IMG/VR virus record: IMGVR_UViG_3300036791_000029
Coordinates: 1 to 52,133 of that record
Direction: 5' to 3' (one strand)
Length of the DNA stretch: 52,133 nucleotides
Origin: a virus
The notes below the pieces were generated by a model, which saw nothing but the letters and a program-made list of their open reading frames with translations, was not told where the DNA came from and made no database searches. Shown piece after piece: positions 1,240 to 51,321 of the stretch. Position 1 is the first letter of the stretch. Every line of letters begins with the position of its first letter. A program made the position numbers and the translations under genes.

Positions 1240-1274
1240 ACTCCTGGCGCCCTCTCATATATCGTTACGCAGTC

Positions 1275-1304
1275 AAACCTAACTAACCTAAACCTAACTA
1301 ACCG
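1275..1304. repeat. Two tandem 15-bp repeats (AAACCTAACTAACC core)
   Basis: Two adjacent copies of AAACCTAACTAACC(T/G) lie 35-65 bases upstream of the nuclease gene. The core CCTAACTAAC also occurs at 1452-1461 and at about 12231, both next to a 16-bp palindrome. The intergenic stretch 1240-1487 holds no gene; it contains these repeats, the palindrome at 1465 and a possible minus-strand promoter. A binding site for a regulator is a reasonable guess. Confidence 0.6.
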
Positions 1305-1362
1305 TCGTTTCTCCCTATATCTACTCTAGAAAAAAAGACCCCTCCCTTGGCGTTTTTTCTTT

Positions 1363-1391
1363 GTTATAATTATTACAGTTAAATAGGTTAA
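1363..1391 (-). promoter_or_regulatory. Possible promoter for nuclease-terS-terL
   Basis: On the minus strand TTAACC (1391-1386) is followed after 17 bases by TATAAC (1368-1363), a fair match to a sigma-70 promoter. It lies in the only intergenic gap between the helicase and nuclease genes and would read toward the terminase genes. Seen by eye only; AT-rich sequence gives such matches by chance. Confidence 0.3.
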
Positions 1392-1487: not shown

Positions 1488-3056
1488 CTATTTGTCCTTC
1501 CAGAACCACACTTTGCGTATCTTGCCATCAACCAGTCTAGCTTTATTGTCGTGTCTACTAAATCCATACTTAACAAGAGCAGCACCAAATGCTCTAGACT
1601 TCCTCATCAATTCTGGTTTCATCATATCCCAACTCGTTTGAGCGTGAGTATAAATCAAATCCAAATATACACCGCTCTCTTTACATATCTCTAATTGGTT
1701 AGCATCCTTAAAGAAATCACATACCAGTTCATATTCATCAGAAACAAATACAACATCACGTTCATTAACTTGGTCTCTTTGCAATTCAAATTCTGCAGCC
1801 AGAAGATAACAACTTATTCCTTGTCTATACATTCTAATTGCTTGAGCAAGTATCTTTGGATATTCCTTTGCAAATCCTTCCAAGTCCATAAACTCATTTT
1901 GCCCTAGTTCTGACCTCAAAGTAATTGCTCTAGTATCTCCACTTTCATCTCTACCAAGAAATTGCTTTTCATTAGTAGTCAGTATGATTATGTTACGTTT
2001 TGCATAATCAATTACATCATCAGATCGCATACGTCTAAATGTAGAATGAGTTTCAGTAACAACTCTTTTGAATAGGTTCTTTGACGCTCTATCAGTTCCT
2101 CCTAACTCAGCAAACTCTACTACAGCCTTATCATACGTTTGTCTATAGAATTCAACAATATCATCTCTTGCTGATAAAGCAGCACTTGAATACCAAAAGT
2201 TTGGCACTAATAATCTACATAGTTGAGTCTTTCCAATATTTTGTTCTCCCTCAATAGTGAAATAATAACGTTGGGGAAGGCCAGGGGAAAAGCATCGCCA
2301 CACAAGAGATAGCATTAATGTTCTAGACCATACAGCACTCCATTGTTCTTTAGGAGCGCCCATATATTTGACAGCAAAACAATTCTCCACACTAAATCTT
2401 TCTATTCCATCATCAGGATTTTCATTTTCAATATTAGTCATCCACAACTTATAAAAATCAATTTTGTTTCTCTTAGCAACATTTTGTTGAGCTTCCTTTA
2501 ATGCTCCCCAATTATGTTCTGATGGGAAACCATTTCTATTGAGCTTACGTTTTAATTCAGTTCCATGATACTCATTATGTTTATGATACTTTTGTGCTAT
2601 TCCAGGCAATTCAAATATAGGTTCATTGCTATCCCAGTCAATTACTGTGTAATATATGTTAGCTGACATTTCATCCCAAATGCATTTTATTCGTTTGGCC
2701 GCCAGAAGAATAAGATACAAATTGTCTTGTGTCGGAAATATACCAGTTTTGTTTAATGTTAGTTCATTCAATGGAACATCTGTAAACTCTTCAAATTTTG
2801 TTCTAATTTTTTCTTGCGATTTACCAAGAACATATTTATCAATTAAATCATCAATTGTTCCTTTGCGCTTAATGCCTCGAAATGTATCTGATATTCGGCC
2901 TTTTATATTTTCATATTCATATTGATCTGATATGTATAAATCAGCAAGATGGTTTAATAGCTCTTCATTTTGACCAAGTAAATATTCATATTTAGCATCA
3001 TACGAGTCAAGTTCATTTAATTGAAATATTACTTTATTGATTTCAGAATTGTCCAT
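1488..3056 (-). CDS. VirE-like P-loop helicase
   Basis: Predicted replicative ATPase of 522 residues resembling virulence-associated E (VirE) and D5-type phage helicases. Walker A is GEQNIGKT (about residues 270-277). A Walker B-like strand, VVEFAE, lies near 312-317, followed by an arginine-rich stretch and IIILTTNE (sensor-like). The N-terminal third is helical and unassigned. The ATG at 3056 is preferred over an upstream in-frame start at 3098 because AGAGGGG stands just before it and it overlaps the primase stop by 14 bases. With the primase upstream it forms a primase-helicase pair encoded far from the polymerase and on the other strand. Confidence 0.8.
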   Translation of the reverse strand: MDNSEINKVIFQLNELDSYDAKYEYLLGQNEELLNHLADLYISDQYEYENIKGRISDTFRGIKRKGTIDDLIDKYVLGKSQEKIRTKFEEFTDVPLNELTLNKTGIFPTQDNLYLILLAAKRIKCIWDEMSANIYYTVIDWDSNEPIFELPGIAQKYHKHNEYHGTELKRKLNRNGFPSEHNWGALKEAQQNVAKRNKIDFYKLWMTNIENENPDDGIERFSVENCFAVKYMGAPKEQWSAVWSRTLMLSLVWRCFSPGLPQRYYFTIEGEQNIGKTQLCRLLVPNFWYSSAALSARDDIVEFYRQTYDKAVVEFAELGGTDRASKNLFKRVVTETHSTFRRMRSDDVIDYAKRNIIILTTNEKQFLGRDESGDTRAITLRSELGQNEFMDLEGFAKEYPKILAQAIRMYRQGISCYLLAAEFELQRDQVNERDVVFVSDEYELVCDFFKDANQLEICKESGVYLDLIYTHAQTSWDMMKPELMRKSRAFGAALVKYGFSRHDNKARLVDGKIRKVWFWKDK

Positions 3057-4065
3057 TTCTGTTCCCCTCTGCATCATTGTAAGCGTCTTTGAAAGCATCT
3101 TCTATTGTATTTCTATCATTCTTAGCATTGCCGTGCCACCACATCATAGCAGCAGCAGCAAATTCATCTTTTATTATATCATCATCAAGTAATCCAGCAA
3201 TACAATACTTAGCTATCCAAACTGTATGCTTATACAACCATTTATGTCTTTCGCCATCATCAACATACTTCATTTCTCTAATAACTTTTTCCTTGGATGC
3301 TATAGCTTGCTTAAATGTAGCTGGATGATATTCTTGTTTGCTATCGTTATCAGTTATAATATGTCTTATATCTGTAAATTGACTTTCACCACCAATCCAT
3401 GTCCACCATTTACTACAAGGATCGCTACACCCTATAAATCTAGGACGCGCGGTATAGATAGGCTGGACCGGCCCAAATAACGCTGTATCTACAACATCTT
3501 TCGCACCAGCAAAATGTTTCTTAAGCGCAATACAACTAACCTTCACACTATTCCACAAAAACAGCCTGATATGAATACCAGGCTTTCGCAAATAACCAGC
3601 ACTAGGAATAGCAAAGGCTTCCACACCACTCAAATTGAGCGCCAGGAGCACACGAGTAGCATCATCCTTCAGATCACCAGATGACACCCCATATCCATCA
3701 ATATCTAATGCGAACCAATTTTGGTTCTGTTCAATAATGGTTGCGCGATCACCCGTCGCACGATCATCATGGAACAATCGTCTCTGCCGCACAGCATTGT
3801 CATCAATAGCAGTGCCGCGTATAACACAGCATTGTGGACGCGCCAGGAGATACTTGATTAGTTCAAACAAATCCTGTAGATGATATACAGGACGATTGAA
3901 GAAATTGTAGTATTTGACATTATCATAAGCAACTTCAGAGGTAGGATATATTGTTTTGCATAATACAAATCTACTACTGTATGACTTACACACAGTAATA
4001 TTATTAGGAGTTATAAAATCACTTGTAGATTTTTCGCCGTCGTTACTATATATAGGGTCCGACAT
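3043..4065 (-). CDS. Archaeo-eukaryotic-type primase (AEP) domain protein
   Basis: Predicted RNA or DNA primer synthase, 340 residues. WFALDIDGYG (about 117-126) supplies the D-x-D metal pair. SAGYLRKPGIHIR (about 155-167) fits the strand with the catalytic His of AEP primases found beside VirE or D5 helicases. The C-terminal third (KWLYKHTVWIAKYC...) looks like a small helical domain that could contact the helicase. The ATG at 4065 follows GGGGAGGAAACACG, a strong ribosome site; the reading frame extends 32 codons upstream through a hairpin without a good site. The gene is translationally coupled to the helicase. Confidence 0.75.
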   Translation of the reverse strand: MSDPIYSNDGEKSTSDFITPNNITVCKSYSSRFVLCKTIYPTSEVAYDNVKYYNFFNRPVYHLQDLFELIKYLLARPQCCVIRGTAIDDNAVRQRRLFHDDRATGDRATIIEQNQNWFALDIDGYGVSSGDLKDDATRVLLALNLSGVEAFAIPSAGYLRKPGIHIRLFLWNSVKVSCIALKKHFAGAKDVVDTALFGPVQPIYTARPRFIGCSDPCSKWWTWIGGESQFTDIRHIITDNDSKQEYHPATFKQAIASKEKVIREMKYVDDGERHKWLYKHTVWIAKYCIAGLLDDDIIKDEFAAAAMMWWHGNAKNDRNTIEDAFKDAYNDAEGNRNGQF

Positions 4066-4218: not shown

Positions 4219-4500
4219 ATGCTTAGATCACATAGTAAATCCATAACAGCAATTGATCGTGCTGTATACTTATGGATGCTGTGCACTATTGAATGGATGC
4301 ACGAAAACAATCAACTAATATCAAATAACAATCTCACAAGAATATTTGGAGAAGAAACAAAGAAGCGTTTCAACTTCTATCGTGAAATAGCCATTGATAA
4401 TCATGACTTAACGCCAGGAGGAATAATCCTTACACCCAAAGGACAAAGGATCGTTGACTCCTGGCGCCGGCATCAAGAACGCATATTCAGTATTGATTAG
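4219..4500 (+). CDS. Possible small winged-helix protein, lone plus-strand gene
   Basis: An open frame of 93 residues on the plus strand inside the minus-strand block. The sequence looks protein-like: a helical start (ITAIDRAVYLWMLCTIEWMH), a basic middle (GEETKKRFNFYRE), and GGIILTPKGQRIVDSW, which resembles the wing and last helix of winged-helix proteins. The start has no clear Shine-Dalgarno site. Its stop overlaps the stop of the minus-strand gene at 4497. A regulator of the flanking operons is possible; a chance frame cannot be excluded. Confidence 0.5.
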   Translation: MLRSHSKSITAIDRAVYLWMLCTIEWMHENNQLISNNNLTRIFGEETKKRFNFYREIAIDNHDLTPGGIILTPKGQRIVDSWRRHQERIFSID

Positions 4501-4820: not shown

Positions 4821-5771
4821 TTAGCGAGGATTATTGTTGACAGCCCAATACTTTGGATTTGGACTGCCATCCTCTAAGGTTTCATTCTCACCCTCATGGT
4901 ACAGAGCAATATAGCCATGGTTCAAGTCCCAATTCCAGTGGTCTAGTCTTGGGCCATTAAACTTTGAACCACTTCTGACGGATGTTGCCTCTGGGTAGTC
5001 CTTGGTTCCGATATACTCAGAATAGTTCATACCATCCCTGTATATATCCCAAGCATAGTAACCCATCACACCTTCAGCACGTGGGTTCTTGTCCACCATT
5101 TTCCTAAGCCGCAAGTCATTGGTCCATTTTGTGGACCGCCTTGGGCCAGGAGCGCGTGGCTCACCATTAATCTTTGTGGACTTTTGCTTTACAGACTTCT
5201 CACCTTTACTGGTTCCCTTAGCATAGAGATACATACCAATTTCGGTGAGCTTAAGGCCCACAATGGTCTTGGGTTCACCACCATACTCGGCAACAGCAAG
5301 ACCGCGCTGAAGGATGTTGCGTTCCGTCCCAACGTCAAAGAAACCTTTCTTGATTTCTTCTGGGATATGATCGAGCGGAATAACAACATCCGTCACACTA
5401 TCAGCAGACTTCAAGATATCCAAACTTAGAAGAATGCCAATAGCTTGCTTCTCACGTTCAGACAAACGACGCGGACCAGTTACGCGTTCTGCGCGTTTGA
5501 CCCGTTCCTTTGCTTCTGCTTCCTCCTGTGCTTTGTGAGTAGCCTCATCAGTCACTTTTGATTCTGGATACTCTGCACCTTCCTTGGGTTGCTCTTCACC
5601 AATTTGGACTGCATAATCCTCATTGGCTTCTGGCGCAGACCCAACTGCATCATGTTCTGCAGTGGGATCTTGGGCGCCAGGAGAATGCCCCGGATTGTAC
5701 GGCACAGGTTGCACGACATGTTCACTCACTGGTTTATTCCTCAGAGTATGTTTACGTGCCCGTTGTGACAT
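4821..5771 (-). CDS. Hypothetical protein, 316 residues, disordered N-terminus
   Basis: Not recognised. The first third is rich in Pro, Glu, Ala and Lys and is probably disordered (residues 1-100, including QEEAEAKERVKRAERV). The middle (SEREKQAIGILLSLDIL...) could be a small helical domain with a beta strand. The C-terminus is rich in Trp, Tyr and Asp (YYAWDIYRDGMNYSEY, DHWNWDLNHGY). It is the first minus-strand gene left of the divergent promoter region at 5772-6127, so it is probably expressed early. No catalytic motif is visible. Confidence 0.6.
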   Translation of the reverse strand: MSQRARKHTLRNKPVSEHVVQPVPYNPGHSPGAQDPTAEHDAVGSAPEANEDYAVQIGEEQPKEGAEYPESKVTDEATHKAQEEAEAKERVKRAERVTGPRRLSEREKQAIGILLSLDILKSADSVTDVVIPLDHIPEEIKKGFFDVGTERNILQRGLAVAEYGGEPKTIVGLKLTEIGMYLYAKGTSKGEKSVKQKSTKINGEPRAPGPRRSTKWTNDLRLRKMVDKNPRAEGVMGYYAWDIYRDGMNYSEYIGTKDYPEATSVRSGSKFNGPRLDHWNWDLNHGYIALYHEGENETLEDGSPNPKYWAVNNNPR

Positions 5772-7390: not shown

Positions 7391-7416
7391 CTCCTGGCGC
7401 CCAAAAGCGCCAGGAG
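7391..7416 (+). terminator. Perfect 10-bp hairpin built from the dispersed motif
   Basis: CTCCTGGCGC (7391-7400) and GCGCCAGGAG (7407-7416) are exact inverted copies around CCAAAA. It stands just after the two-gene early unit and looks like a terminator stem, but only a short T/C-rich run follows. Pairs of uptake or Chi-like motifs often double as terminators in the same way. Confidence 0.65.
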
Positions 7417-8998: not shown

Positions 8999-9106
8999 GT
9001 TGGGCGCCAGGAGTATATACGCTTCTGGCGCCCAGCGCCGTAGTGCGATGTGTGTCGCACCCGATGATTCCAAAAGGATGAAACGGCACTAGAAAGGAAT
9101 GGAACA
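8999..9106 (+). promoter_or_regulatory. Two-hairpin leader module 1
   Basis: TGGGCGCCAGGAG (9001-9013) pairs with CTTCTGGCGCCCA (9022-9034). A second hairpin follows, GTGCGA 9043-9048 / TCGCAC 9055-9060. The common tail CTAGAAAGGAATGGAACA runs directly into the next ATG and carries the ribosome site (AAAGGA). Confidence 0.75.
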
Positions 9107-9507: not shown

Positions 9508-9586
9508 ACGGAATGAGCGCCAGGAGTAACAAGCTTCTGGCGGCTCATTCCGCTAGCGTTGTGCTAGTCTAGAAAGGAATGGAACA
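9508..9586 (+). promoter_or_regulatory. Two-hairpin leader module 2
   Basis: GGAATGAGCGCCAGGAG (9510-9526) pairs with CTTCTGGCGGCTCATTCC (9534-9551) along nearly its full length. The second hairpin is CTAGC 9553-9557 / GCTAG 9563-9567, where most other modules have CCAGC / GCTGG, a compensated change. TCTAGAAAGGAATGGAACA leads into the ATG. Confidence 0.8.
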
Positions 9587-10594: not shown

Positions 10595-10672
10595 CGGAAT
10601 GAGCGCCAGGAGTAATGACCTGGTTGCTCATTCCGCCAGCGATTATTGCTGGGTCTAGAAAGGAATGGAACA
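10595..10672 (+). promoter_or_regulatory. Two-hairpin leader module 3
   Basis: GGAATGAGC (10596-10604) pairs with GCTCATTCC (10626-10634), with CCAGG / CCTGG inside. The second hairpin is CCAGC 10636-10640 / GCTGG 10648-10652. The tail TCTAGAAAGGAATGGAACA precedes the ATG. The module begins inside the stop codon region of the previous gene. Confidence 0.8.
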
Positions 10673-10953: not shown

Positions 10954-11029
10954 CGGAATGGGCGCCAGGAGTAACATTCTGGTAGCCTATTCCGCCAGCA
11001 ATAGTGCTGGGCTAGAAAGGAATGGAACA
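10954..11029 (+). promoter_or_regulatory. Two-hairpin leader module 4
   Basis: GGAATGGGCGCCAGGAG (from 10955) pairs imperfectly with CTGGTAGCCTATTCC (to 10993). The second hairpin is CCAGC 10995-10999 / GCTGG 11006-11010. GCTAGAAAGGAATGGAACA leads into the ATG. Confidence 0.75.
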
Positions 11030-11756: not shown

Positions 11757-11841
11757 CCTTGACGGATGGGCGCCAGAAGAACAATACTCCTGGCCGCCTA
11801 TCCGCCAGCGCTGTTGCTGGAACTAGAAAGGAAAAGGAACA
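11757..11841 (+). promoter_or_regulatory. Two-hairpin leader module 5
   Basis: GGATGGGCGCCAG (from 11764) pairs with CTGGCCGCCTATCC (to 11802). Here the right arm carries CTCCTGG and the left arm CCAGAAG, the reverse of the other modules, so the motif has swapped sides. The second hairpin is CCAGC 11805-11809 / GCTGG 11816-11820. ACTAGAAAGGAAAAGGAACA precedes the ATG. Confidence 0.75.
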
Positions 11842-12703: not shown

Positions 12704-12780
12704 GACGGAATGGGCGCCAGGAGCAAATACTTCTGGCCGCCTATTCAGCCAGCACTGCGCTGGTGAAAGGAAAAGGAACA
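12704..12780 (+). promoter_or_regulatory. Two-hairpin leader module 7
   Basis: GGAATGGGCGCCAGGAG (from 12707) pairs with CTTCTGGCCGCCTATTC (to 12746). The second hairpin is CCAGC 12749-12753 / GCTGG 12759-12763. The shortened tail GTGAAAGGAAAAGGAACA leads into the ATG. Confidence 0.75.
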
Positions 12781-13923: not shown

Positions 13924-14772
13924 ATGGCAAAGCGTGTAATACGGCAAGACAGCGTGACTGAGAACCTTCCTGCTACTCTCACAGCAGAAGAGGAAATGCT
14001 GGCCAAGCTGGCACAAAAGAATACAGTATTTGATCGTAATGAACAAGTTGTTCCGCGTCTCAAGATACTACAGCCACTTAATCCTGAAGTTCAGGAAGGT
14101 GGCAGTGCCTATGTTCCTGGTGCGAAAGCAGGTATGTTTTATAATACCGCAAGTAACAAGTTGACTCCTGGCCAGGAGGGGATGATCATTTGTGTTATTG
14201 GTCATCAAAAACAGACTATTGAATGGGCAAGTAACAATCCTGGTTCTGGTCTCATAAAGATTTGGGGATCAGATGAAGGTTGGAAAGCATTGTGCGAACC
14301 AGCTCAGCGTGATGCTCTTAATCCTTTGACCAGGGAAGGTCATTATATAGATAAGCAGAGATCATTTCTTATCTTGGATATCAATACTCAGACTGGAGAG
14401 ACTGATCCTAGTTTCTTCAATCTGAGAAGCACAGGTAATCGTGTGGCTAATCTCCTGGCCACGATGTTGACACAAACCAGGATGAAGATGAGTAATGGTC
14501 AGACTATTACTCCACCATTCTATTACTTCACATACAAGATGACATTAGACTTGGTGCGTAATATTCAAGGTCAATCTTGGTGGTCTCCCAAGATCGTAAA
14601 GAATACCAATAAGGATAATATGCATGTAAAGACACAAGATATGCCGAAAGGTGATGCTATCTTTAAGCAGGCTATACTACTACAGGAACATTTCCTGGAA
14701 GGTGGTATTCAACAGAGCGATTGGGAACAGCCCAATGCTGATTTGGGTGGTGATAATATTCCTTCATTCTAA
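13924..14772 (+). CDS. Probable single-stranded DNA-binding or recombination protein
   Basis: A 282-residue protein with a central beta-rich domain (KLTPGQEGMIICVIGHQKQTIEW, RSFLILDINTQTGETDPSFFNLRSTG) and an acidic, disordered C-terminus ending in DNIPSF. A phage protein of this length and layout near a polymerase often coats ssDNA, and an acidic tail with a terminal Phe is the hallmark of SSB-type proteins. This is inference from layout; no OB-fold signature is certain. CTCCTGGCCAGGAG, a perfect palindrome of the dispersed motif, lies in its coding sequence at 14165-14178. Confidence 0.5.
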   Translation: MAKRVIRQDSVTENLPATLTAEEEMLAKLAQKNTVFDRNEQVVPRLKILQPLNPEVQEGGSAYVPGAKAGMFYNTASNKLTPGQEGMIICVIGHQKQTIEWASNNPGSGLIKIWGSDEGWKALCEPAQRDALNPLTREGHYIDKQRSFLILDINTQTGETDPSFFNLRSTGNRVANLLATMLTQTRMKMSNGQTITPPFYYFTYKMTLDLVRNIQGQSWWSPKIVKNTNKDNMHVKTQDMPKGDAIFKQAILLQEHFLEGGIQQSDWEQPNADLGGDNIPSF

Positions 14773-15489: not shown

Positions 15490-16427
15490 TTATTATAGGA
15501 GCAGGATTAGCTGGACTCCTGGCGGCCAGGAGATTAGCACATCATGACCCTATAGTATATGAACAGCAAGGATCGTTACCAAATAATCATAGTGCCTTGT
15601 TACGTTTTCGATCATCTATAGTTGGAGATGCTATAGGCATTCCATTTAAGCAAGTAACAGTATACAAAGGGGTTTTACTTGAAGATGAAACAATCACAAA
15701 TACTCCAACTATCAGAGAATTCAATTCTTATTCTATCAAATCAACTGGAGGTATCTATCAACGATCTATTGTTGATGTACACCCGGTTACACGCTTTATT
15801 GCACCAAACGACTTCGTGTACACCTGTAGTATTGGATCTACAATTCTATTCGCCCATGATGCTAAAGATTGTCTCTGCGGAATTGATAAAAAAGAACCTA
15901 TCATCTCAACAATCTCAATGCCCATCTTAATGAAGATAATCAATTATCCAGGTTGGTCGGAGTTTAATTTCCATACCAAAAAGATATGGACTATCAATTG
16001 TGATCTGGAAGATGTTGATGTATATCAAACACTATATGTTCCATATGGTGTTGATGAACCTTATAGAGTTAGCATTACTGGTAACAGAATGACATTAGAG
16101 TTTACTTTTAATCCTGCTGGAATAGGATCAAAAGATTTTATTGATCAATATCTTGACATTCTATTTGCTAATCATGGTATCATAGCTACCAACATAGTTC
16201 AAAAGGAACAAGACTATGGCAAGATTGTTCCAATAGACGAATATGAGCGCCAGAAGTTTATACTGTGGGCCACTGATAATTGGAACATCTATTCACTGGG
16301 ACGATACGCTACATGGAGACAAATACTACTTGATGATGTAATGAAAGACATAGGAGTAATAACCAAATTCATCGAACAACGCAACAACTATGCGCGACTG
16401 ATCAAAATAGGAGATAAAAATGCCTAA
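15486..16427 (+). CDS. FAD/NAD(P)-binding Rossmann-fold protein
   Basis: A 313-residue protein beginning with a dinucleotide-binding motif, IIIGAGLAGLLAARRL (GxGxxG at residues 5-10), then a strand ending in an acidic residue (VYEQQ). This is the N-terminus of flavin-dependent oxidoreductases of the amine oxidase / UDP-galactopyranose mutase class. The C-terminal ATDNWNIYSLGRYATWRQ resembles the second FAD contact of this class (G-R-x-A at its core). The substrate is unknown. It lies just upstream of ThyX and pyrophosphatases, so a nucleotide or DNA-modification role is plausible. An inverted pair, CTCCTGGCGGCCAGGAG, sits in its first codons (15516-15532). Confidence 0.7.
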   Translation: MIIIGAGLAGLLAARRLAHHDPIVYEQQGSLPNNHSALLRFRSSIVGDAIGIPFKQVTVYKGVLLEDETITNTPTIREFNSYSIKSTGGIYQRSIVDVHPVTRFIAPNDFVYTCSIGSTILFAHDAKDCLCGIDKKEPIISTISMPILMKIINYPGWSEFNFHTKKIWTINCDLEDVDVYQTLYVPYGVDEPYRVSITGNRMTLEFTFNPAGIGSKDFIDQYLDILFANHGIIATNIVQKEQDYGKIVPIDEYERQKFILWATDNWNIYSLGRYATWRQILLDDVMKDIGVITKFIEQRNNYARLIKIGDKNA

Positions 16428-16776
16428 AGTAAACTGGGCTGAACTATACTATCATGCTAAAAGATCAAGTGAAGAATTGAAGACTAGAGAAGGATTTAGT
16501 GATGGTATACAACATTTAGATGCATTCACAAATACTATTGAGAAGGATATTAATTCTGCTCTAAATAATCACAGCAATGTTACCAAAAATGAGATTAAAC
16601 ATAAACGAGCAAAGTCTAATTTCAATCCAAAACCGTGCAAGAATTGCGGTAAAATATTTCAACCTACTGGTAGTAGACATCTATGGTGTGAAAATTGTGA
16701 AACTCCATCCGATCAAAGACAAAAATTAATTGCTGAACTAATGAAGGATAATACTAAAGGAGGATACAATGCCTAA
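16420..16776 (+). CDS. Zinc-ribbon protein, 118 residues
   Basis: A hydrophilic N-terminal region precedes a Cys4 zinc ribbon: PCKNCGKIF (about 69-77) and WCENCE (about 89-94), twelve residues apart. This kind is common in phage and bacterial DNA-binding proteins. It overlaps the FAD gene by eight bases and ThyX by eight bases. Function unknown. Confidence 0.65.
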   Translation: MPKVNWAELYYHAKRSSEELKTREGFSDGIQHLDAFTNTIEKDINSALNNHSNVTKNEIKHKRAKSNFNPKPCKNCGKIFQPTGSRHLWCENCETPSDQRQKLIAELMKDNTKGGYNA

Positions 16777-38444: not shown

Positions 38445-38461
38445 TTATATTACTCCTGGCG

Positions 38462-39671: not shown

Positions 39672-40844
39672 CTATGCCCGAACGTTATTGCGATTAGCCA
39701 TACGCGCGCGTCTCTGTTGTTCAGCTACCATTGCCACATTTACTGCGCTAGTAGGAGTAGCAATAGGCAATGATTCATAAGTCAGAACACCTTGTATTTG
39801 CACAACATGGATTGCACCAGCGAGCCTTGCAGTAAAGTATACATCTCGCAAGATACGATTTGCTTTATCATTAACAGAAACTGATTGAGAAAGAGGAACA
39901 TCAATAGTATAGCTAGGAACCAAATTACCATCCGTATCAACTTCAGCCGGAGCAATACCACCTCTAGTGACTCCAAAGTCAAGAGCCTGTTGTACTCTTG
40001 TGCGGATAATCGCAATACCAGGATCAGTGTAAGGAATACGATTATCAACCATTTGAAGGAATACACGCGTCTTGATTTCTTCGCAGAGCCAATCTCTAAA
40101 CCTAATTACATCAATCCATTCTCCACCAGCAACTTTACCATTCTGGGTAATAGCAATATTGCGGAATGGCTCGAATGTATTACCGTTCTTAGCAAAGAGA
40201 TTGTTGAATGTTGTTTCATTAATGTAGTTATAATCAACATTACTCAAACGCTGATTAGCCCATGTCTCCTGGCCAGGATATTTGGTGAAGCTTTTGGACG
40301 CAATAGCAACATCAGGAAAGTTTTGAATGTTAGGATCATACCACCAAGCAGTTCTAAACAATTGGGCTTGCATAAGACTATGAGCTACAGATGTGGTATC
40401 GCCAGCAGCAGGTGTAGTATTATCAATATCACTCAACACAGTAATGAAAAGTTTCTCTTGGGATTCAATCCAGGTGCCAATGTCCAATGCTCTATTCTCA
40501 TCGTGAGTTGAATCACACAATGCCCACCAATCACTATTCTCGTCATTAATAGCGGACAGATCATCATCAACGTTAGCAGCACCGCTATCAAAACCAATAT
40601 ACAATTGTGGAGGATGCGGTATCTGACTAAAGAATACTTGGGCAGCTAGATACATAGCATCTGTTGCTTGGCAACCATAAGTATCTAACAGTTCATCTGG
40701 ATCAGTAATAATGTATACATTTGCTGTATCTGTGCTAGGTTTTACAAATGTTCCAAACAACAACAGATCACTGAATGTTGCTTGAGTAATACCAGCAGTT
40801 CGCAGAGAGATAGATACTTGAACGATACGGTCGATGTTTGCCAT
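39672..40844 (-). CDS. Tail sheath protein (DUF3383-type)
   Basis: A 390-residue protein. The VQVSISLRTAGITQATFSDLLLFGTF start, YTDPGIAIIRTRVQQALDFGVTRGGIAPAEVDTDGNLVPSYTIDVPLSQSVSVNDKANRILRDVYFTARLAGAIHVVQIQGVLTY end and internal repeats are characteristic of DUF3383 sheath subunits. The gene is the clearest proof of a contractile tail. It is followed by the tube gene, the usual order. Confidence 0.88.
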   Translation of the reverse strand: MANIDRIVQVSISLRTAGITQATFSDLLLFGTFVKPSTDTANVYIITDPDELLDTYGCQATDAMYLAAQVFFSQIPHPPQLYIGFDSGAANVDDDLSAINDENSDWWALCDSTHDENRALDIGTWIESQEKLFITVLSDIDNTTPAAGDTTSVAHSLMQAQLFRTAWWYDPNIQNFPDVAIASKSFTKYPGQETWANQRLSNVDYNYINETTFNNLFAKNGNTFEPFRNIAITQNGKVAGGEWIDVIRFRDWLCEEIKTRVFLQMVDNRIPYTDPGIAIIRTRVQQALDFGVTRGGIAPAEVDTDGNLVPSYTIDVPLSQSVSVNDKANRILRDVYFTARLAGAIHVVQIQGVLTYESLPIATPTSAVNVAMVAEQQRRARMANRNNVRA

Positions 40845-43026: not shown

Positions 43027-43027
43027 T

Positions 43028-43690
43028 TTAGGCTACCATCTCCTGGCTGGGCTTGCCCCGATACTTGATCGCGCCAAGAAGAATAATGCCCAAACCAATT
43101 ATGGCGAGGCCAGCAGGCTCAGATGCTGGAACTGCATTAGAGGATGCATTACCAGCTACAGTCGCAGTAAAACTATTAATAGTTGAGCCTGCGATAGTGA
43201 TAGGCGGAGATACGTTCGTCAAGCCAAACGTCAAAGCAGAAGGATTGACCAACTGTGATGCTGGGATCACAGAAGATGTCAAGTTGAGAGTATCAGGTGG
43301 AGCACCGATAGCAAGAGTAAGTGCCTGGCCTACTCCAAGAGCGGCATCAGTAAACGATCCTGACAGCAAGTTAGTTCCACCACCACCAGCAGCAGAGGTG
43401 ATAGAGAATGTTCCACTATAATGCTGAAGTGCGCCCGTCCCTACAGGAACAGCAGCATCAACACTAGTAGCATTAATGTTGAAGAACTCAGAACCAAGAA
43501 TACCACACAGACACTGAGTTACATCAACAGCAATGTTACTGCCAGAGATGGTTGTGGCTGTATCAGATCCATTTGCTGTAGCAGTAATGGTATTACTACC
43601 ACTAGTCTGAGCAAACTGGATTATCGGTACAGCATAGGCAGCAATAGGAAAGAACAAGGCGCCGACAACAAGAGCCATTAGTTTCTTCAT
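43028..43690 (-). CDS. PEP-CTERM domain protein (secreted, exosortase substrate-like)
   Basis: A 220-residue protein. It begins with a signal peptide (MKKLMALVVGALFFPIAAYA) and ends with a PEP-CTERM-like sorting signal: VPASEPAGL, a hydrophobic span (IIGLGIILLGAI) and basic KYRGK. The body (TISGSNIAV, YSGTFSITSAAGGGGTNLLSGSFTD, NVSPPITI) has the strand-rich, Ser/Thr-rich style of bacterial PEP-CTERM proteins. These are exported and processed by exosortase in EPS-producing Gram-negative bacteria. The gene is embedded between capsid and connector genes, with its own ribosome site (GGAGA) and a hairpin upstream. It may alter the surface of the infected host. Confidence 0.75.
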   Translation of the reverse strand: MKKLMALVVGALFFPIAAYAVPIIQFAQTSGSNTITATANGSDTATTISGSNIAVDVTQCLCGILGSEFFNINATSVDAAVPVGTGALQHYSGTFSITSAAGGGGTNLLSGSFTDAALGVGQALTLAIGAPPDTLNLTSSVIPASQLVNPSALTFGLTNVSPPITIAGSTINSFTATVAGNASSNAVPASEPAGLAIIGLGIILLGAIKYRGKPSQEMVA

Positions 43691-43759: not shown

Positions 43760-44344
43760 TTATCGTTTAGTCTGCTGCTGTGGAGTAGGCTGACCACCTG
43801 GCTCTGTTGGATGACCGGGCTGCCCACCAGGATCAATAGGATTAGCAGGCCGATTACCTGAACCACCGCCAGGAGCAATTGGATGGGATGGATGACCAGG
43901 TAAAGGCATACCAACATCAAGACTAGGATCAACTACTGTGTAGCCAATTACCTTAAGCCCACCAGCAGCACTTGCCGCAACTATAGCAACCAAGAATTTT
44001 TGACTTGGCAATCCTTGACCTGGACGGCCAGGTTGACTCGGCAAACCTTGATCTGGATGCGGTTGACTACCAGGCAAATCTTGATTTGGTCTTCCAGGTT
44101 GACTTGGCAAAGTATTATCAAGTACAGGCGGCCAAATAGAACCTGGAGGCATTGGATAACCTGGAGGCAATTGTACTGGTGGCCAAATACCAACAGGTGG
44201 TGGCCAAATGCCAGGAGGTGGTGGAGGCAAAGTATTATCTACAAATGGTGGAGCACCTCCCCAAATGCCTGGAGGCATTCCAGGCAAACTATTATCAGGT
44301 CCACCACCACTAGTAATAATCATAGCAGGTGTGCTTACAGCCAT
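43760..44344 (-). CDS. Pro/Gly-rich head-region protein
   Basis: A 194-residue protein made mostly of Pro-rich repeats: PPGIWPP, DNTLP, LPSQPGRP and DPGGQPGHP types. A short ordered strand segment, QKFLVAIVAAS...KVIGYTVVDPSLDVG, sits near residues 115-145. Similar Pro-rich proteins with a VVDPSL segment are found near capsid genes of phages of proteobacteria; they may be flexible head decorations. The start overlaps the previous stop (TAATG) and follows AAAAGGAC. Confidence 0.6.
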   Translation of the reverse strand: MAVSTPAMIITSGGGPDNSLPGMPPGIWGGAPPFVDNTLPPPPPGIWPPPVGIWPPVQLPPGYPMPPGSIWPPVLDNTLPSQPGRPNQDLPGSQPHPDQGLPSQPGRPGQGLPSQKFLVAIVAASAAGGLKVIGYTVVDPSLDVGMPLPGHPSHPIAPGGGSGNRPANPIDPGGQPGHPTEPGGQPTPQQQTKR

Positions 44345-44538
44345 TACGCATTGTCCTTTTCTGTCTGATCTTCAACAATGACGAGAACAGGCACGTTACG
44401 TTCAGTCACATCTTTCATTATGCGCTGAACACCAGGATGATTTAGATAATCATCCTCTACCTCAGTAGGCTGGCCAGGAGTAAGCATAGTATCAATGAGC
44501 GTTATTACTCGCTCACTGTTGTTGACCATTAGCACCAT
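44344..44538 (-). CDS. Small hypothetical protein after the capsid gene
   Basis: A 64-residue protein, not recognised, with an acidic tail. It has a likely helix (SERVITLIDTM) and a strand (VPVLVIVEDQ). It starts right at the capsid stop and overlaps the Pro-rich gene stop to start. A minor head protein or assembly factor is possible. Confidence 0.55.
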   Translation of the reverse strand: MVLMVNNSERVITLIDTMLTPGQPTEVEDDYLNHPGVQRIMKDVTERNVPVLVIVEDQTEKDNA

Positions 44539-45531
44539 TTAGGTTGTATAACCTTTCAGCAGAGCTAATGGGTAATACACTGTAACACCTGCGCTCCTGG
44601 CCAGGCAATCCACAACGATCTCAAGATTGCGAGCATCAGGAGGAAGCTGCGAGAATGGCATTACGTATTCATGAGCGAGGTTATTGATGTTACGCTCATA
44701 GAGCAGAGCCACATCCTTACCTGCATTTGCGCCTTGGCCAGCACCAGTGCATTCCCAGATATTCTCTACAGTCAAGCCTGGGTAATTAGACAGAAACAAA
44801 CCCAAAGCAGAAATGGGCAATCCACCAGGCCCAGTAACAAACTGAGTCGTGGCTGCCACATATGCTTTAGTTGACAATTCTAGATGGTCTGCTGTATGAA
44901 CCCCAAGGTTCTGCGTAATGTAAGCAGAAACCATTCCGACTAGATTGGCATAGATTTGAGCGCCAGTAAGAGTTGACCAATCACCAGGATTAGGAAACAC
45001 ATATTCTGGAACGTTTGGATGAGTAAACAATCCATACAATCCAAAATCAGGATCACCTTTCAACTTAATGCTGGCGATCTTAAGATCCATTGCGCGTCTA
45101 GCAGCATCTGCTTTTCGCGTATCCAGACCAATTCCAGTCGCTCTACTGGCCCGCAATTCGTTTACATTGTAACCGTAACTGTTGCCAAGTGTCTTAACTT
45201 GGACTGTTTTACCAGCACCAGTCACATCCGCGCGCGGGAGATCATCAGCATAGTTGGCAATTACCTTAGCCATTCCAACTGCATCGAACATTCGGATTGT
45301 AATAGTCTCAACCCATTCCGGCACCGAAGTGTCATCAGGAACAAGACGATCAGCGTTTATTCCTGGCAGCAAACGATCGTATGTTTGCGCTTTAATAAAG
45401 TTGAGTTGCTGTGCTAGCCAAATGCCAGTAGTGGTGGTTGGCAATTGATCTTCACGCAAATTTCGTTCAACAAAGTCCATGACAGGACCAATGTCGGCCT
45501 CATCATAGGTAGCTTGATTATCAAGTAGCAT
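44539..45531 (-). CDS. Major capsid protein (DUF2184-type)
   Basis: A 330-residue protein of the HK97 fold. Patterns typical for DUF2184 capsids: TYDRLLPGINADRLVPDDTSVPEWVETITIRMFDAVGMAKVI, VKTLGNSYGYNVNELRAS, and at the end AHEYVMPFSQLPPDARNLEIVVDCLARSAGVTVYYPLALL. It follows the protease and decoration genes, as expected. Phages with this capsid usually have DUF1073 portals and DUF2213 proteases, as here. Confidence 0.85.
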   Translation of the reverse strand: MLLDNQATYDEADIGPVMDFVERNLREDQLPTTTTGIWLAQQLNFIKAQTYDRLLPGINADRLVPDDTSVPEWVETITIRMFDAVGMAKVIANYADDLPRADVTGAGKTVQVKTLGNSYGYNVNELRASRATGIGLDTRKADAARRAMDLKIASIKLKGDPDFGLYGLFTHPNVPEYVFPNPGDWSTLTGAQIYANLVGMVSAYITQNLGVHTADHLELSTKAYVAATTQFVTGPGGLPISALGLFLSNYPGLTVENIWECTGAGQGANAGKDVALLYERNINNLAHEYVMPFSQLPPDARNLEIVVDCLARSAGVTVYYPLALLKGYTT

Positions 45532-47543: not shown

Positions 47544-48390
47544 CTTCCGTTTCCATTAGACTAGCTTCAACACCAATAGCCTCAGGCAATACTGGTTCTG
47601 CCCAACAACGACATTGATAGTCTTCACCAGGTTCATTAAAGTCAGTATCTCCTGGCGGATTACCCCATTGGAATGTTTGCCCATCTACCTCTGCGTGAGT
47701 TTCTCTAACGCGCTCATCTCCTACTGTGCGCCATACATAACTATCAACACCAATATCTTGTTGTCTTTCACTAGTAAGTTTGCCATTCAATTTAGCAACT
47801 TGATCTCTAGCAATAAGGTCACATCTACTATCAGTAACATCTAGTCTTTCATCAAATACATCGTATATGTCTGAGGATAAATCCTCCTGAGTTTGACCAC
47901 TCATTAATGCCTCTCTGGTCATATCAGATATTTGTCGTAACGTCTTTGCTGGTATATCTTTTATGAGCGCAGCATTATTGAATGACCAATGATCCAATAG
48001 ATCACGATAAGCAGCAGGGTCTTCAGCAGTAGGATTAACACCATATTGCGATCGTATCAGTTTCGTCCATTCTGATTTATTGTATTGATTTACGCGCGGA
48101 CCAATTGCACTCATACGCTTAATAGTTGCGTTAGTAGGCTTAACCATATCCTTGGCTATATCAGTCAAAGCTTTATTCAAATCATCTTGCCAAGCATCTT
48201 GCCTAATATGTCCACCCGCAGGATGAGATGTATCAGTAATTTCTTTGGTAGCATCTTCAACAATTGGATGTAGATAATGTTTGACAGCCTTCCGCATTTG
48301 GGCATTAAGCCAACGCAGATTGCGCCGATACTCATATTCCACTCCTATGGGATACTTCATAGGAACAATCTTTTTGCGTTTGCGTGGCAT
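47536..48390 (-). CDS. Minor head protein (SPP1 gp7 / Mu F-like)
   Basis: A 284-residue protein. The C-terminal VWRTVGDERVRETHAEVDGQTFQWGNPPG...PGEDYQCRCWAEPV is diagnostic for the phage head morphogenesis family (SPP1 gp7, Mu gpF), whose Cys and His residues may bind metal. The N-terminus is basic and helical. It follows the portal, as usual. The ATG at 48390 overlaps the stop of the tiny membrane peptide gene (TGATG); an in-frame TTG lies one codon upstream. Confidence 0.82.
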   Translation of the reverse strand: MPRKRKKIVPMKYPIGVEYEYRRNLRWLNAQMRKAVKHYLHPIVEDATKEITDTSHPAGGHIRQDAWQDDLNKALTDIAKDMVKPTNATIKRMSAIGPRVNQYNKSEWTKLIRSQYGVNPTAEDPAAYRDLLDHWSFNNAALIKDIPAKTLRQISDMTREALMSGQTQEDLSSDIYDVFDERLDVTDSRCDLIARDQVAKLNGKLTSERQQDIGVDSYVWRTVGDERVRETHAEVDGQTFQWGNPPGDTDFNEPGEDYQCRCWAEPVLPEAIGVEASLMETEDA

Positions 48391-48482
48391 CAATGATAAA
48401 CTTTAGTTGTTACTACACAAAGCCAAACAGCAAAGACGCCGATCGCTATACCTCCAATAATTGATAAAGCATACCACATCAT
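48390..48482 (-). CDS. Tiny single-span membrane peptide, 30 residues
   Basis: Between portal and minor head genes, a 30-codon frame begins ATGATG overlapping the portal stop (ATGA) and ends TGATG overlapping the next start. It encodes MMWYALSIIGGIAIGVFAVW, one transmembrane span, and a short tail TTKVYH. The exact fit of both overlaps supports that it is translated. Its role is unknown; a membrane anchor for head assembly or a small inhibitor is possible. Confidence 0.6.
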   Translation of the reverse strand: MMWYALSIIGGIAIGVFAVWLCVVTTKVYH

Positions 48483-49915
48483 TTTACTGGAACTTGTAGA
48501 GTTGTAGTATTTACTCCTGGCGGCTGTGACGGATCAGTTGGAACATCCATCTGTGTTACATCTACATTAGCACTATAGTTCAGTTCCTCTGGGAATGTAG
48601 GCAACTCAGGATCAAACTCATACTCAGCATACATATCCTCTACAACAATCTGTCTAACCTCTTCTGGAGACAATATTTGATTATCCATAAATGCTACTAG
48701 TGTTTGCTGTCTAAAGTTATCAGCTTGCTCTTCAACTAAGTCTTTGTCTGCTTCCTCTTTGGCTGTCGGCACCCACAATGGATTAAATGTAATGTGCCAA
48801 TCATCAGGTATGCTATTCTTGAGCTCTTTCTGAAGCCACAATATAGATGTTAGCTTTTCCAAAGGTGGTCTAACAATTACCTCTTGAATATGAGCGACCA
48901 TTACATAATGAGACTCAAGATCACCAGCATTAGTTTGATTAAGTCCTTTTGTTGACTTACCAAATAACATGTTCTCTTGGAAGCCAGTAGATGCTGCTAA
49001 TGCTGTTTGGAACTCTTGTAGAGCAGCTTGTATACCATCAATACCTGGACTTTGTACTGCGTAAGTATCATCTTTATCTACAACCACAGAGTTCAAATTA
49101 CCTCTGACCTGGTCTACCATATTGATACGTTTAATGGCCATAGCATCATCACCATTAGCCAACATTTCACCTAGACCAGACATATTGTATACTGCTTGTT
49201 GTTTCCTTTCCAACAGACGTTCTGTCCAATCTAGAGCGCGCTCATATCGTCCAATATCTTTGGCACAGCTTTCTAATACTGATCTACCAGCCCATGGGAT
49301 ACGATTATACTTCATCATATTGGGTGGCATAGGCTCACCAGGCACTGGTATTAGTCTAGTTTCATGTATCTCAAAAGTTTGTCCTTCTGATGGCGTAATC
49401 TGATAGAACTCTGGTTTCCCAAATGTATCAGGATCATTTTGATCTGTATAGTATTTCTCTGTGCCATGTATACTTGTTATATCATACACTCTAATTTCAT
49501 TAATTGTATCTAGATTGTCTGTATTAAGCGGATCAGTAAAGTCACCACCATCTTGGGCAATAAGGATTAGAGCAGCACCACCGTATAGACGCGACCATCT
49601 AATAGCATCAGCCATTCTTGTTAGTACAGACAAACGATCATATTCATCTTGCATTACTTCATCTTCATCATTCTCTATTTCAATGCCGCGCTGAAACGAG
49701 TCATCAGCAGGCTTATCAACTATCTTTTGTGCTAATCCACTAGTGATATATAGATTTGTTAGTTCAAATACTGACCATCGCAAAGACCAATAACGAGATA
49801 GTCCACGCCCCAACCAATTGCTTGTTTGGAACGTTGTAGATGTTCTATCAAGACTTGGAACACCAAGTCCAGACAATAGATTAGCATAGCCATCTTGGCG
49901 TCTAATAGCATTCAT
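48479..49915 (-). CDS. Portal protein (DUF1073-type)
   Basis: A 478-residue protein. The patterns LYITSGLAQKIVDKPADDSFQRGIEIE, RLYGGAALILIAQDG, GRSVLESCAKDIGRYERALDWTERLLERKQQAVYNMSGL and FGKSTKGLNQTNAGDLESHYVMVAHIQE are characteristic of DUF1073 portals. The dodecameric ring is the DNA entry port. It overlaps terL (ATGA) and is followed by head genes. The C-terminus is Pro-rich. Confidence 0.85.
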   Translation of the reverse strand: MNAIRRQDGYANLLSGLGVPSLDRTSTTFQTSNWLGRGLSRYWSLRWSVFELTNLYITSGLAQKIVDKPADDSFQRGIEIENDEDEVMQDEYDRLSVLTRMADAIRWSRLYGGAALILIAQDGGDFTDPLNTDNLDTINEIRVYDITSIHGTEKYYTDQNDPDTFGKPEFYQITPSEGQTFEIHETRLIPVPGEPMPPNMMKYNRIPWAGRSVLESCAKDIGRYERALDWTERLLERKQQAVYNMSGLGEMLANGDDAMAIKRINMVDQVRGNLNSVVVDKDDTYAVQSPGIDGIQAALQEFQTALAASTGFQENMLFGKSTKGLNQTNAGDLESHYVMVAHIQEVIVRPPLEKLTSILWLQKELKNSIPDDWHITFNPLWVPTAKEEADKDLVEEQADNFRQQTLVAFMDNQILSPEEVRQIVVEDMYAEYEFDPELPTFPEELNYSANVDVTQMDVPTDPSQPPGVNTTTLQVPVK

Positions 49916-51321
49916 GACGATAATGCCAAGTAACGTTCATATTGCGATACACCAGCGATACATTCTAGATAGGCACCACTACTGGCGTCAATATAATCAT
50001 CATGATCACCCTCAGGAAAAACAGCCATTTCCTTCAAGTAATCATTCACCCACTGGCCTTCAACTATGTCAATATTACCAGCTTGCCATTGCGCAGATAG
50101 TGGTTCTGCCCTCGTTTCTTTTGGTCCAGTTTCTCTTACTGACTTAGCCTTGAAGCCGGCAAGATGAGAGATGAGACTTGCTGATTGATCCTTTCCAGCC
50201 TGTCCTGGATCTTGTGGCACGACCGTTGTAACTCGTTTATACTTGTTACGATCCTGCCAAGCAGTATTAAGCAATATATCACGAACAATAGAAGCATTAT
50301 GTCTAATGCTAATACCATCAGCAATACATATGCGGCCATTCTCTCTGCGACCCATTAATACTGAAGCTGTAGCACTAGGCGAAGGATTAACTTCACTAGG
50401 TTCTGTGGCAGCCAAATCCCAGCGACGCACCCACATCTTCACATCAGTAGGAACAGCAGGAATAATCTTGGCCATTACTTGAGGGAAATAAGAACCAGCA
50501 CTAGGTCTAATCTTCCAATTACCATGTAACAGACGTTCACGCTCAACTCTAGTCATCATCTCTAGGTTGGCACGATAGTCTGGGTCTTGTTCGTTCAGAA
50601 TAACATTATCTTCTAATGTTGCCGGAATGAATGTAAATGACTTAGGCAACGACGCAGGGAATTTATTGAGTAACTCCTGGCGCGTGTCAGCCCAAAACAT
50701 TTTATCATCAAATCTGACAAAGTAACGAATAATGCCACTTCGTTCTAATATTGGGTAACCAGTATCTTGATCAATCCACCAAGAGACTAGATCAGCAACC
50801 CAAGAGTCAGCATCAGGATTGCAAGTAGCACGTATATACGGTCTAACACCACACATCGAACGATTACGAGACAGCATATACCAAAATTGCTTCTCGGTGA
50901 AGTGAGTAAGCTCATCATATCCAATGAGTGGTATCTGCGAGCCTTGCCAATCCAGCACATCCTTTTCTTGGTTGAGATGGCCAAACGTTATTGTCGATCC
51001 ACTAGGGAAAGACCATGAACGATATGGACTTTGTTTTGGTATACCATCTATACGCACATATATGCCGAAACTTGTATCAAACAAACCACCTTCTGAGGTT
51101 ATTTGTACAGCTTCACGACGGAATATGACTGCTCCAAAGTCACTATTGTCGAGGTGTCGGCATGGTTCTAACAGTAATGCGTATGTTTTGCCGCCTCCGG
51201 CTGCACCTCCATATATGGCTATGTCAGCACTAGTAGACAAGAATTGTTCTTGTGGTCCAGGTTGCGGACCAATATCATTAGTATCATCAAATCCATCATA
51301 CATATTATGCCGCTTCCCCAT
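49912..51321 (-). CDS. terL: Terminase large subunit
   Basis: The ATPase-nuclease that packages DNA, 469 residues. Walker A is GGAAGGGKT (about 39-47), Walker B lies in LIGYDELTHF, followed by LSRNRS. The RNase H-like nuclease domain has RRWDLAATE (first Asp), VVPQDPGQAGKDQ and HDDYIDASSGAY (last Asp). Length fits the family. The ATG at 51321 overlaps terS; TTG at 51324 or ATG at 51303 are alternatives. A diverged allele of its start is at 1-127. Confidence 0.88.
   Translation of the reverse strand: MGKRHNMYDGFDDTNDIGPQPGPQEQFLSTSADIAIYGGAAGGGKTYALLLEPCRHLDNSDFGAVIFRREAVQITSEGGLFDTSFGIYVRIDGIPKQSPYRSWSFPSGSTITFGHLNQEKDVLDWQGSQIPLIGYDELTHFTEKQFWYMLSRNRSMCGVRPYIRATCNPDADSWVADLVSWWIDQDTGYPILERSGIIRYFVRFDDKMFWADTRQELLNKFPASLPKSFTFIPATLEDNVILNEQDPDYRANLEMMTRVERERLLHGNWKIRPSAGSYFPQVMAKIIPAVPTDVKMWVRRWDLAATEPSEVNPSPSATASVLMGRRENGRICIADGISIRHNASIVRDILLNTAWQDRNKYKRVTTVVPQDPGQAGKDQSASLISHLAGFKAKSVRETGPKETRAEPLSAQWQAGNIDIVEGQWVNDYLKEMAVFPEGDHDDYIDASSGAYLECIAGVSQYERYLALSS

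Follow-up and report, generated by a model that had tools for sequence, protein, structure and literature searches.

According to passages of PMC8718748 and PMC7102993, the primase-polymerase of phage NrS-1, an enzyme of the archaeo-eukaryotic primase (AEP) type with a helix bundle and a helicase, depends largely on an 8-nt template site, 5'-TTTGGTTA-3'. RepB' of RSF1010 likewise joins an AEP domain to a helix bundle, and its start site, ssi, is described in parts of PMC4434180 as strand-specific and provided with a hairpin, 40 nt long, present once per strand and used in a leading-strand mode only. Here we describe an octamer, GCCAGGAG (CTCCTGGC on the opposite strand), which is dispersed over 52,133 nucleotides of viral DNA (IMG/VR record IMGVR_UViG_3300036791_000029, positions 1 to 52,133; hereafter the window) and part of whose copies also stand in inverted pairs. 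We propose that the octamer is a template signal of the phage replication machinery, most likely the initiation site of its AEP-type primase, a proposal that we consider about evenly balanced between right and wrong. New here are the even spacing of the octamer on the late-gene strand, the presence of different words in most of the phages with other primase-helicases and the lack of enrichment of one such word, that of Escherichia coli phage TH32, in a piece of the K-12 genome; in the open-access literature searched, no description of such dispersed phage words was found.

Results and Discussion

A preliminary description of this DNA had reported at least 35 exact copies of a 9-bp motif, CTCCTGGCG, in both orientations, where less than one would be expected. 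We have found 36 exact copies in the window, 18 on each strand, the first at 1241 and the last at 50674-50682, and no copy of the same pattern read backwards. The expectation was about right, the figure for the 9-mer being closer to one, but the unit was one base too long: the C preceding the octamer is present in 36 of 55 copies and is not needed, and the true unit, GCCAGGAG/CTCCTGGC, occurs 55 times (30 on the plus and 25 on the minus strand), or 1.05 per kb. A trinucleotide model predicts 1.4 octamers in the window, an excess of about 40-fold, and 420 permutations of the octamer's letters have on average 0.77 copies. Its one-mismatch neighbours have 0 to 4 copies each, except at position 6, where the variants are commoner (A 17, T 11, C 7), giving the consensus GCCAG[G>A,T,C]AG. 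Pro-Gly is encoded by some of the copies in late genes, and the excess might be put down to repeated peptides, to codon use or to chance. This was refuted by 200 shuffles that kept amino acids and codon use, in which the octamer had a mean of 3.33 copies and a maximum of 8 and the 9-mer a mean of 1.18 and a maximum of 4; the count is predicted by neither background model, and with the conservation of the sites described below, such an origin has practically no chance of being correct.

The copies are not tied to one reading frame. When 68 largely non-overlapping open frames of the window were taken as genes, 44 octamers lay wholly within genes (23 sense, 21 antisense), their phases being 6/8/9 in sense and 8/12/1 in antisense, so that only one of the six frames is little used; the preliminary description had already reported the 9-mer in different frames. 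By transcription block 31 octamers are sense and 24 antisense, showing no preference for the transcribed strand, and noncoding DNA is richer in them (2.4 per kb) than coding DNA (0.92 per kb). A Shine-Dalgarno function (AGGAG) as the general cause was rejected because 24 of the 55 copies are antisense by block. Sites were also kept in related genomes. In G012, the aligned parts of which are 77% identical to the window, 36 of 48 aligned octamer sites are intact; for aligned octamers in general the proportion is 18.2%, and for those flanking the sites 13.2%. Among the other relatives the intact aligned sites were 12 of 17 (G009), 12 of 25 (G011), 11 of 17 (G004), 2 of 4 (G010), 2 of 4 (G003), 2 of 3 (G002) and 3 of 4 (G007), and several of the changed copies had become GCCAGTAG or GCCAGAAG, the commoner variants. 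With conserved sites, many frames and no bias to the transcribed strand, selection acts on the octamer as DNA, which bears out the earlier view.

The octamer is frequently found in inverted pairs. In ten genomes, 51 pairs no more than 60 bases apart had the order CTCCTGGC-n-GCCAGGAG and 16 the reverse order, and in 11 lineage genomes 13-48% of plus copies had a minus copy within 60 bases, compared with 5-8% after shifting. It is possible that the octamers are sites of another phage DNA-binding protein, such as a stoperator-like repressor or a genome-organising or packaging factor, and a short asymmetric site that is lineage-specific, present in tens of copies and often paired in inverted orientation would agree with this. 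The stoperators of L5-like mycobacteriophages are a real parallel, being, in the portions of PMC9283540 that deal with them, asymmetric sites dispersed in tens of copies and recognised by a protein of the phage; as described there, however, they are 13 bp long, oriented with transcription and situated in promoters and short intergenic gaps, whereas the octamer is neither confined to intergenic DNA nor oriented with transcription. Furthermore, octamers are still held in both orientations in G016, G017, G019 and G020, where early and late genes are on one strand. We regard a binder of this kind as rather unlikely. As a separate observation, a leader resembling TCTAGAAAGGAATGGAACAATGGA is repeated in the early region (window 9088, 9568, 10654 and 11011, and more weakly at 12755), and an intergenic inverted repeat with GCCAGGAG sits shortly upstream of several of these leader copies.

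A feature absent from the preliminary description, which had proposed a test for strand bias, is that spacing differs between the strands. With the late-gene strand set by six late proteins, octamers on that strand were more even than uniform placement in all eight contigs longer than 50 kb, namely the window, G012, G016, G017, G018, G019, G020 and G022 (p from <0.0002 to 0.024); of all 15 contigs tested, 12 reached p < 0.05. Their mean spacing was 1.5-3.0 kb in the eight long contigs, the window having 25 copies in 52 kb. The other strand was even in two of the 15 contigs (G004, G013); in the window, octamers of the non-late orientation are clustered and denser in the early half. Among control hexamers of similar number, which were counted on each contig's plus strand and not on the late strand, none of 920 in the window reached p <= 0.0025, compared with p = 0.0002 for the octamer, and in the other seven genomes at most 0.33% did so. 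Gene layout does not explain the evenness, since the early genes tested in G016, G017, G019 and G020 share the strand of the late genes.

The individual sites are less stable than their spacing. Late-strand coding sites common to the window numbered 15 of 17 in G012 and 15 of 18 in G018, both close relatives, and 5 of 15 (G016), 5 of 15 (G017), 5 of 13 (G019), 6 of 15 (G022) and 2 of 13 (G020) in distant members; for the other strand the values were 1 of 12 (G016), 1 of 13 (G017), 0 of 11 (G019), 7 of 14 (G022) and 2 of 11 (G020). As the distant genomes are evenly spaced yet have few sites in common with the window, spacing is kept while individual sites come and go. The lineage genomes are related, so the spacing tests are not independent, and the late-strand split was post hoc, having been chosen after a first look at 15 genomes (11 of the lineage together with Vibrio phage VA-RY-3, Cronobacter phage Ss1, G027 and G028). 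With both strands pooled, these 15 showed no significant evenness (combined z 1.15), the non-late strands being clustered for the most part; for both strands of the window together it was weak (50 merged clusters, coefficient of variation 0.72 compared with 0.92 for random placement, p 0.04). Of the contigs that were absent from the first look, G020 and G024 are even on the late strand and G004 and G010 are not. A special role of one strand might also be expected if the octamers were recognised for localised single-strand nicking, a property of T5, phage tf and the phiKMV-like phages; dispersed sites with a short consensus on one strand have been described in phages. For tf and the LUZ24-like phages related to it, however, passages of PMC3517423 place 8-14 such sites on one strand only, whereas both strands carry the octamer here, and we find nick sites very improbable.

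Within IMG/VR the octamer follows one viral lineage. Of 42 terminase-related viral loci, 15 have 68-87% identity, and 14 of these carry the octamer; the sole locus free of it, L017, has CCCAGGAG seven times instead. Among the other 27 terminase relatives (35-59% identity), 22 are without the octamer and five have 1-4 copies. A scan for inverted octamer pairs matched 89 stretches, 80 loci of which were listed and read; among these 80, 27 combined a density of 0.94 copies per kb or more with a G+C content of no more than 46%, and 26 of the 27 match window proteins themselves, L079 doing so via its contig G013. The preliminary description had let its claim depend on enrichment in close relatives, and the contigs longer than 50 kb hold 38 to 65 copies (window 55, G012 57, G016 65, G017 60, G018 60, G019 56, G022 54, G020 38). 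It ranks first among over-represented octamers in 21 of 23 lineage entries and third in the short contig G003, and is absent from L017; in the entries that have it, the excess over the trinucleotide model is 27- to 137-fold. No named phage was matched by megablast with the stretch tried, window 10000-34999, and the terminase of the best-matching named phage was 54% identical. In a host search with an alignment of 13 lineage terminases against genome contigs, the best 80 of at least 518 relatives, Acetobacterium and others, had identities of no more than 58%, compared with 65-87% among the terminases of the alignment, and the host of the lineage was not found among these matches. Copies of the octamer, 2-5 in each, were also seen in certain short loci rich in G+C (L131, L115, L118 and L106, for example).

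Words of a similar kind, with different letters, were found in other phages that share the DnaE-type polymerase, both named phages (VA-RY-3, Ss1, PVA7, TH32) and polymerase relatives from IMG/VR (G027, G028, G029, G030, G033 and G036). AGCGGAA occurs 48 times in VA-RY-3 (21 plus, 27 minus; 4.3 expected) and 35 times in Ss1 (17 plus, 18 minus; 3.9 expected), and Vibrio phage PVA7 has 26 copies of AGCGGAA and 20 of AGCGGAG (2.4 and 1.7 expected). AGCGGAA is even on both strands in VA-RY-3 (p 0.019 and 0.006) and nearly so in Ss1 (0.053 and 0.004). The words of the other phages were GCCGCGC in TH32 (53 in 50 kb, 9.8 expected), CCGCGGA in G028 (45 in 40 kb, 3.0 expected), AGCGCCCG in G027 (54 in 62.9 kb), CCCTAG in G029 (41, 6.1 expected), CCGGGA in G030 (62, 17.6 expected), TCCCGGA in G033 (45, 7.3 expected) and CACGGA in G036 (32, 6.2 expected). 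In PVA7 (L260) polymerase and primase are each split over several open frames, which may be due to sequencing error.

GCCGCGC was counted in a 40-kb piece of E. coli K-12 and found 15 times against 16.0 expected, that is, the TH32 word is not enriched there. Because one word is used across host genera and the host piece lacks enrichment of the TH32 word, the evidence points to a reader of the octamer that is encoded by the phage rather than the host. Whether host or phage imposes the motif had previously been left open; the phage side is favoured, the word being bound to a lineage and words differing with the replication genes, and the host side is disfavoured. The same K-12 piece has 14 copies (3.6 expected) of GCTGGTGG, which we take to be the E. 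coli Chi octamer, and the window has 9 against 1.7 expected, a number to which coding bias may contribute.

Two explanations in which the host reads the word, or may do so, bear on these results. In the first, the octamer is Chi-like and stops a host nuclease of the RecBCD/AddAB type, or a phage equivalent, thus protecting ends or steering recombination. Chi in phages is likewise an asymmetric octamer that is over-represented and linked to DNA metabolism, parts of PMC3784561 report its enrichment in lambdoid phages that lack a recombinase, and an asymmetric genome-wide octamer that is even in one orientation would suit the protection of concatemer ends. In the same account, however, Chi is read by the host and reaches about 0.2 per kb in those phages, with a median enrichment of 3.1-fold, both well below the values for the octamer, which is specific to a phage clade; moreover, the words follow phage clade, as with AGCGGAA in Vibrio and Cronobacter phages and GCCGCGC, unenriched in the K-12 piece. 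We judge a Chi-like role unlikely. In the second, the host would impose the word as a HIP1-like, DNA-uptake or methylation-linked signal. HIP1 and DNA-uptake sequences are short words spread over cellular genomes; they too are genome-wide, but not specific to a phage clade. The core CCAGG, presumably a Dcm-type pentamer, is in excess in the window (147 vs 102), yet the 55 octamers alone account for that excess and the words of related phages are without CCAGG. AGCGGAA is common to phages of different hosts, and among the 80 loci listed, high density at no more than 46% G+C was confined to this lineage. A host-imposed word appears quite improbable. As the preliminary description had stated, the octamer is neither E. 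coli Chi nor HIP1, and GCCAGGAG differs from its own reverse complement, so it is not a HIP1-like palindrome; host-imposed signals (Chi, DNA-uptake sequences, HIP1) are disfavoured.

The primase is our candidate for the phage-encoded reader, a methyltransferase being another possible one. Polymerase is common to these phages and primase-helicases vary: G027 has a fusion of Prim-Pol and VapE, G029 a Prim-Pol, and TH32 and PB1 a RepB-type primase plus VapE. A further type, first identified in VA-RY-3 by a match to phrog_3022 and in other members by a profile built from the VA-RY-3 protein, was found in VA-RY-3, Ss1, G028, G031, G032, G034, G035, G039, PVA7 (in pieces) and G037 (a short match). 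AGCGGA or CGCGGA was at least 3.8-fold enriched in 7 of these 10 phages and in none of 11 other DnaE phages (highest 1.6). All 23 loci found to have a primase of the window's family carry GCCAGGAG, in 4-35 copies each, at least 12 of them lying in contigs already counted, and the octamer accompanies even primases that are just 32-34% identical to that of the window. From these genome comparisons, words appear to tend to change with primase type.

The window primase has 340 residues, and D121, D123 and D193 were invariant in 10 of 10 sequences. The first two belong to W[FY]xLD[IV]D, which agrees with AEP motif I, hhhDhD/E, and D193 supplies the acidic residue of motif III, an assignment made by sequence order and not by residue superposition. 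In an AlphaFold2 model (predicted local distance difference test score, pLDDT, 80.7) residues 15-238 match many AEP primases, the best match being the S-2L PrimPol 6zp9 with a middling score (Z 6.4, root-mean-square deviation 3.6, 142 aligned); human Pri1 and PrimPol were also matched, and residues 246-333 form a predicted C-terminal four-helix bundle. In layout the protein resembles RepB' of RSF1010, whose catalytic domain and helix bundle bind the hairpin-bearing start site, and the NrS-1 polymerase; likeness of fold does not demonstrate a function. The top row of the fold search, a PCI domain (Z 7.6), and other helix-bundle rows were set aside as helical look-alikes that give no functional information. 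When the primase sequence was searched against the PDB, no match up to E 10 was obtained.

In the model that we propose, the primase would recognise the octamer on single-stranded template and start primers there, together with the VapE-like helicase encoded next to it and with the DnaE-type polymerase of the phage. While priming of the lagging strand is usually viewed as loosely placed, at very short signals, here the fork would open the duplex, primers would be laid at octamers, and lagging-strand fragments might begin at fixed places about 2 kb apart. The late strand would be the lagging template over the whole genome, a situation that rolling-circle or concatemeric replication would give, and the clusters and inverted pairs of the other orientation could, as a speculation, mark origins or hairpin start sites. 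In this proposal we infer the primase as the reader, the primer as the product and the mode of replication. A broader form of it, which we hold tentatively and think somewhat more likely to fail than to hold, is that many phages with a DnaE polymerase and an AEP-type primase-helicase would carry a clade-specific priming word of 7-8 bases about every 2 kb per strand, which would program Okazaki starts and be readable from the genome, the even strand being the lagging template of rolling-circle replication. If true, fragment starts in phage replication would be programmed, and primase specificity could be predicted from genome text, providing sequence-specific primases as tools. Even with another reader, the octamer would be a strong phage-bound genome-wide DNA signal, testable in a TH32-type E. 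coli phage.

Several results weigh against a role in priming. The high rate of inverted pairs is not demanded by a priming model. Fragments G004, G010 and G011 are without late-strand evenness, the words of G027 and G028 are uneven on either strand, and the other strand has its largest gap at 7.8 kb in G020 and at 8.4-11.3 kb in the remaining seven long contigs. G031, G035 and G037 have the VA-RY-3-type primase and at most 1.8-, 2.3- and 1.7-fold AGCGGA/CGCGGA; the DnaE phages G037 and G038 are without a clear word, that of G035 is weak, and in PB1 the excess is modest (GCCGCGA, 65 vs 27.5). Since primase, polymerase and genome are of shared descent, the co-occurrence of word and primase is confounded. 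The primase has no Pfam match, and its structural matches are weak, the best Foldseek E being 6e-3 (LigD polymerase domain) and the AEP Z at most that of S-2L PrimPol. The histidine of AEP motif II, sxH, is found in 3 of 10 sequences, with Arg in six and Asn in one, and because it is mostly absent we call the protein AEP-like; some AEP families are without this histidine, as noted in a part of PMC5862659. As for NrS-1, sections of PMC8718748 and PMC7102993 give its site only two copies, mid-genome, as possible origins, in contrast to the dispersed octamers of the long contigs here, and its primase also starts at GTG.

Genomic Context and Other Words

The octamer sites and the genes considered are listed in Table 1.

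Table 1. Positions of octamer sites and of genes in the window
Feature	Position	Strand	Remark
GCCAGGAG site	3641..3648	+	
GCCAGGAG site	3842..3849	+	
GCCAGGAG site	4413..4420	+	paired with 4458-4465
GCCAGGAG site	5145..5152	+	
GCCAGGAG site	5676..5683	+	
GCCAGGAG site	7409..7416	+	hairpin pair with 7391-7398
GCCAGGAG site	9006..9013	+	intergenic inverted repeat
GCCAGGAG site	9519..9526	+	intergenic inverted repeat
GCCAGGAG site	10605..10612	+	intergenic inverted repeat
GCCAGGAG site	10964..10971	+	intergenic inverted repeat
GCCAGGAG site	12716..12723	+	intergenic inverted repeat
GCCAGGAG site	14171..14178	+	overlapping inverted pair
GCCAGGAG site	15525..15532	+	inverted pair with 15516-15523
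GCCAGGAG site	17505..17512	+	
GCCAGGAG site	18213..18220	+	
GCCAGGAG site	20123..20130	+	
GCCAGGAG site	20460..20467	+	
GCCAGGAG site	21023..21030	+	
GCCAGGAG site	21374..21381	+	
GCCAGGAG site	23588..23595	+	
GCCAGGAG site	23738..23745	+	
GCCAGGAG site	25354..25361	+	
GCCAGGAG site	26251..26258	+	
GCCAGGAG site	31323..31330	+	
GCCAGGAG site	31383..31390	+	
GCCAGGAG site	34652..34659	+	
GCCAGGAG site	35779..35786	+	
GCCAGGAG site	43868..43875	+	
GCCAGGAG site	44210..44217	+	
GCCAGGAG site	44473..44480	+	
GCCAGGAG site	1241..1248	-	evenly spaced late-strand set
GCCAGGAG site	4458..4465	-	late-strand set
GCCAGGAG site	7391..7398	-	late-strand set
GCCAGGAG site	11787..11794	-	late-strand set, intergenic inverted repeat
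GCCAGGAG site	14165..14172	-	late-strand set
GCCAGGAG site	14452..14459	-	late-strand set
GCCAGGAG site	15516..15523	-	late-strand set
GCCAGGAG site	16876..16883	-	late-strand set
GCCAGGAG site	18554..18561	-	late-strand set
GCCAGGAG site	20018..20025	-	late-strand set
GCCAGGAG site	21695..21702	-	late-strand set
GCCAGGAG site	22828..22835	-	late-strand set
GCCAGGAG site	26372..26379	-	late-strand set
GCCAGGAG site	28326..28333	-	late-strand set
GCCAGGAG site	29216..29223	-	late-strand set
GCCAGGAG site	33140..33147	-	late-strand set
GCCAGGAG site	35477..35484	-	late-strand set
GCCAGGAG site	36614..36621	-	late-strand set
GCCAGGAG site	38453..38460	-	late-strand set
GCCAGGAG site	40266..40273	-	late-strand set
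GCCAGGAG site	43040..43047	-	late-strand set
GCCAGGAG site	44594..44601	-	late-strand set
GCCAGGAG site	47649..47656	-	late-strand set
GCCAGGAG site	48514..48521	-	late-strand set
GCCAGGAG site	50674..50681	-	late-strand set
AEP-like primase	3043..4065	-	catalytic domain and C-terminal helix bundle; proposed octamer reader
VapE-like helicase	1488..3098	-	proposed primase partner, adjacent to primase
DnaE-type replicative DNA polymerase	19379..22282	+	
DNA polymerase exonuclease subunit	18521..19069	+	
ThyX-type thymidylate synthase	16769..17515	+	in shared replication block
SNF2-type helicase	22420..23889	+	
Possible RecU-like resolvase	778..1239	-	weak, below Pfam cut-off

Stretches of window 1-935 and of 51198-52133 are repeats of one another, at 94-96% identity, and the record may therefore represent a genome of about 51.2 kb, circular or with terminal redundancy, that was closed on a variant strain. 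No tRNA was found in the window. A small predicted secreted protein (43028-43690, minus strand) has no Pfam match; we take its end to be a PEP-CTERM-like tail, possibly a hint to the type of host cell. A late protein with a collagen-like Gly-X-Y stretch (31539-34355, minus strand) is the source of many local repeats.

Further words were noted besides the octamer. GTATATAC is a second word of the window, with 8 copies where 1.15 are expected, and CGTATATA is present in 24-28 copies within 14-21 kb of L112, L359 and L361. ACTCGTTC and words overlapping it are strongly enriched, with 13-27 copies, in the lineage members L093, G015 (L250-L252) and L121, beside GCCAGGAG. An excess of GAGCGGGA in L024 was dropped as a local repeat, 21 of its 22 copies being on one strand at positions 755 to 3054. 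Two genes at 13414-14772 (plus strand) match gp33- and gp34-like families of cyanophage Pam3, the gp33 of which is annotated as a host-nuclease inhibitor. Pam3 itself (L263), a phage annotated with DNA polymerase I, has 141 copies of CCCGAG against 44 expected and 39 of CGATCCCG against 6.8.

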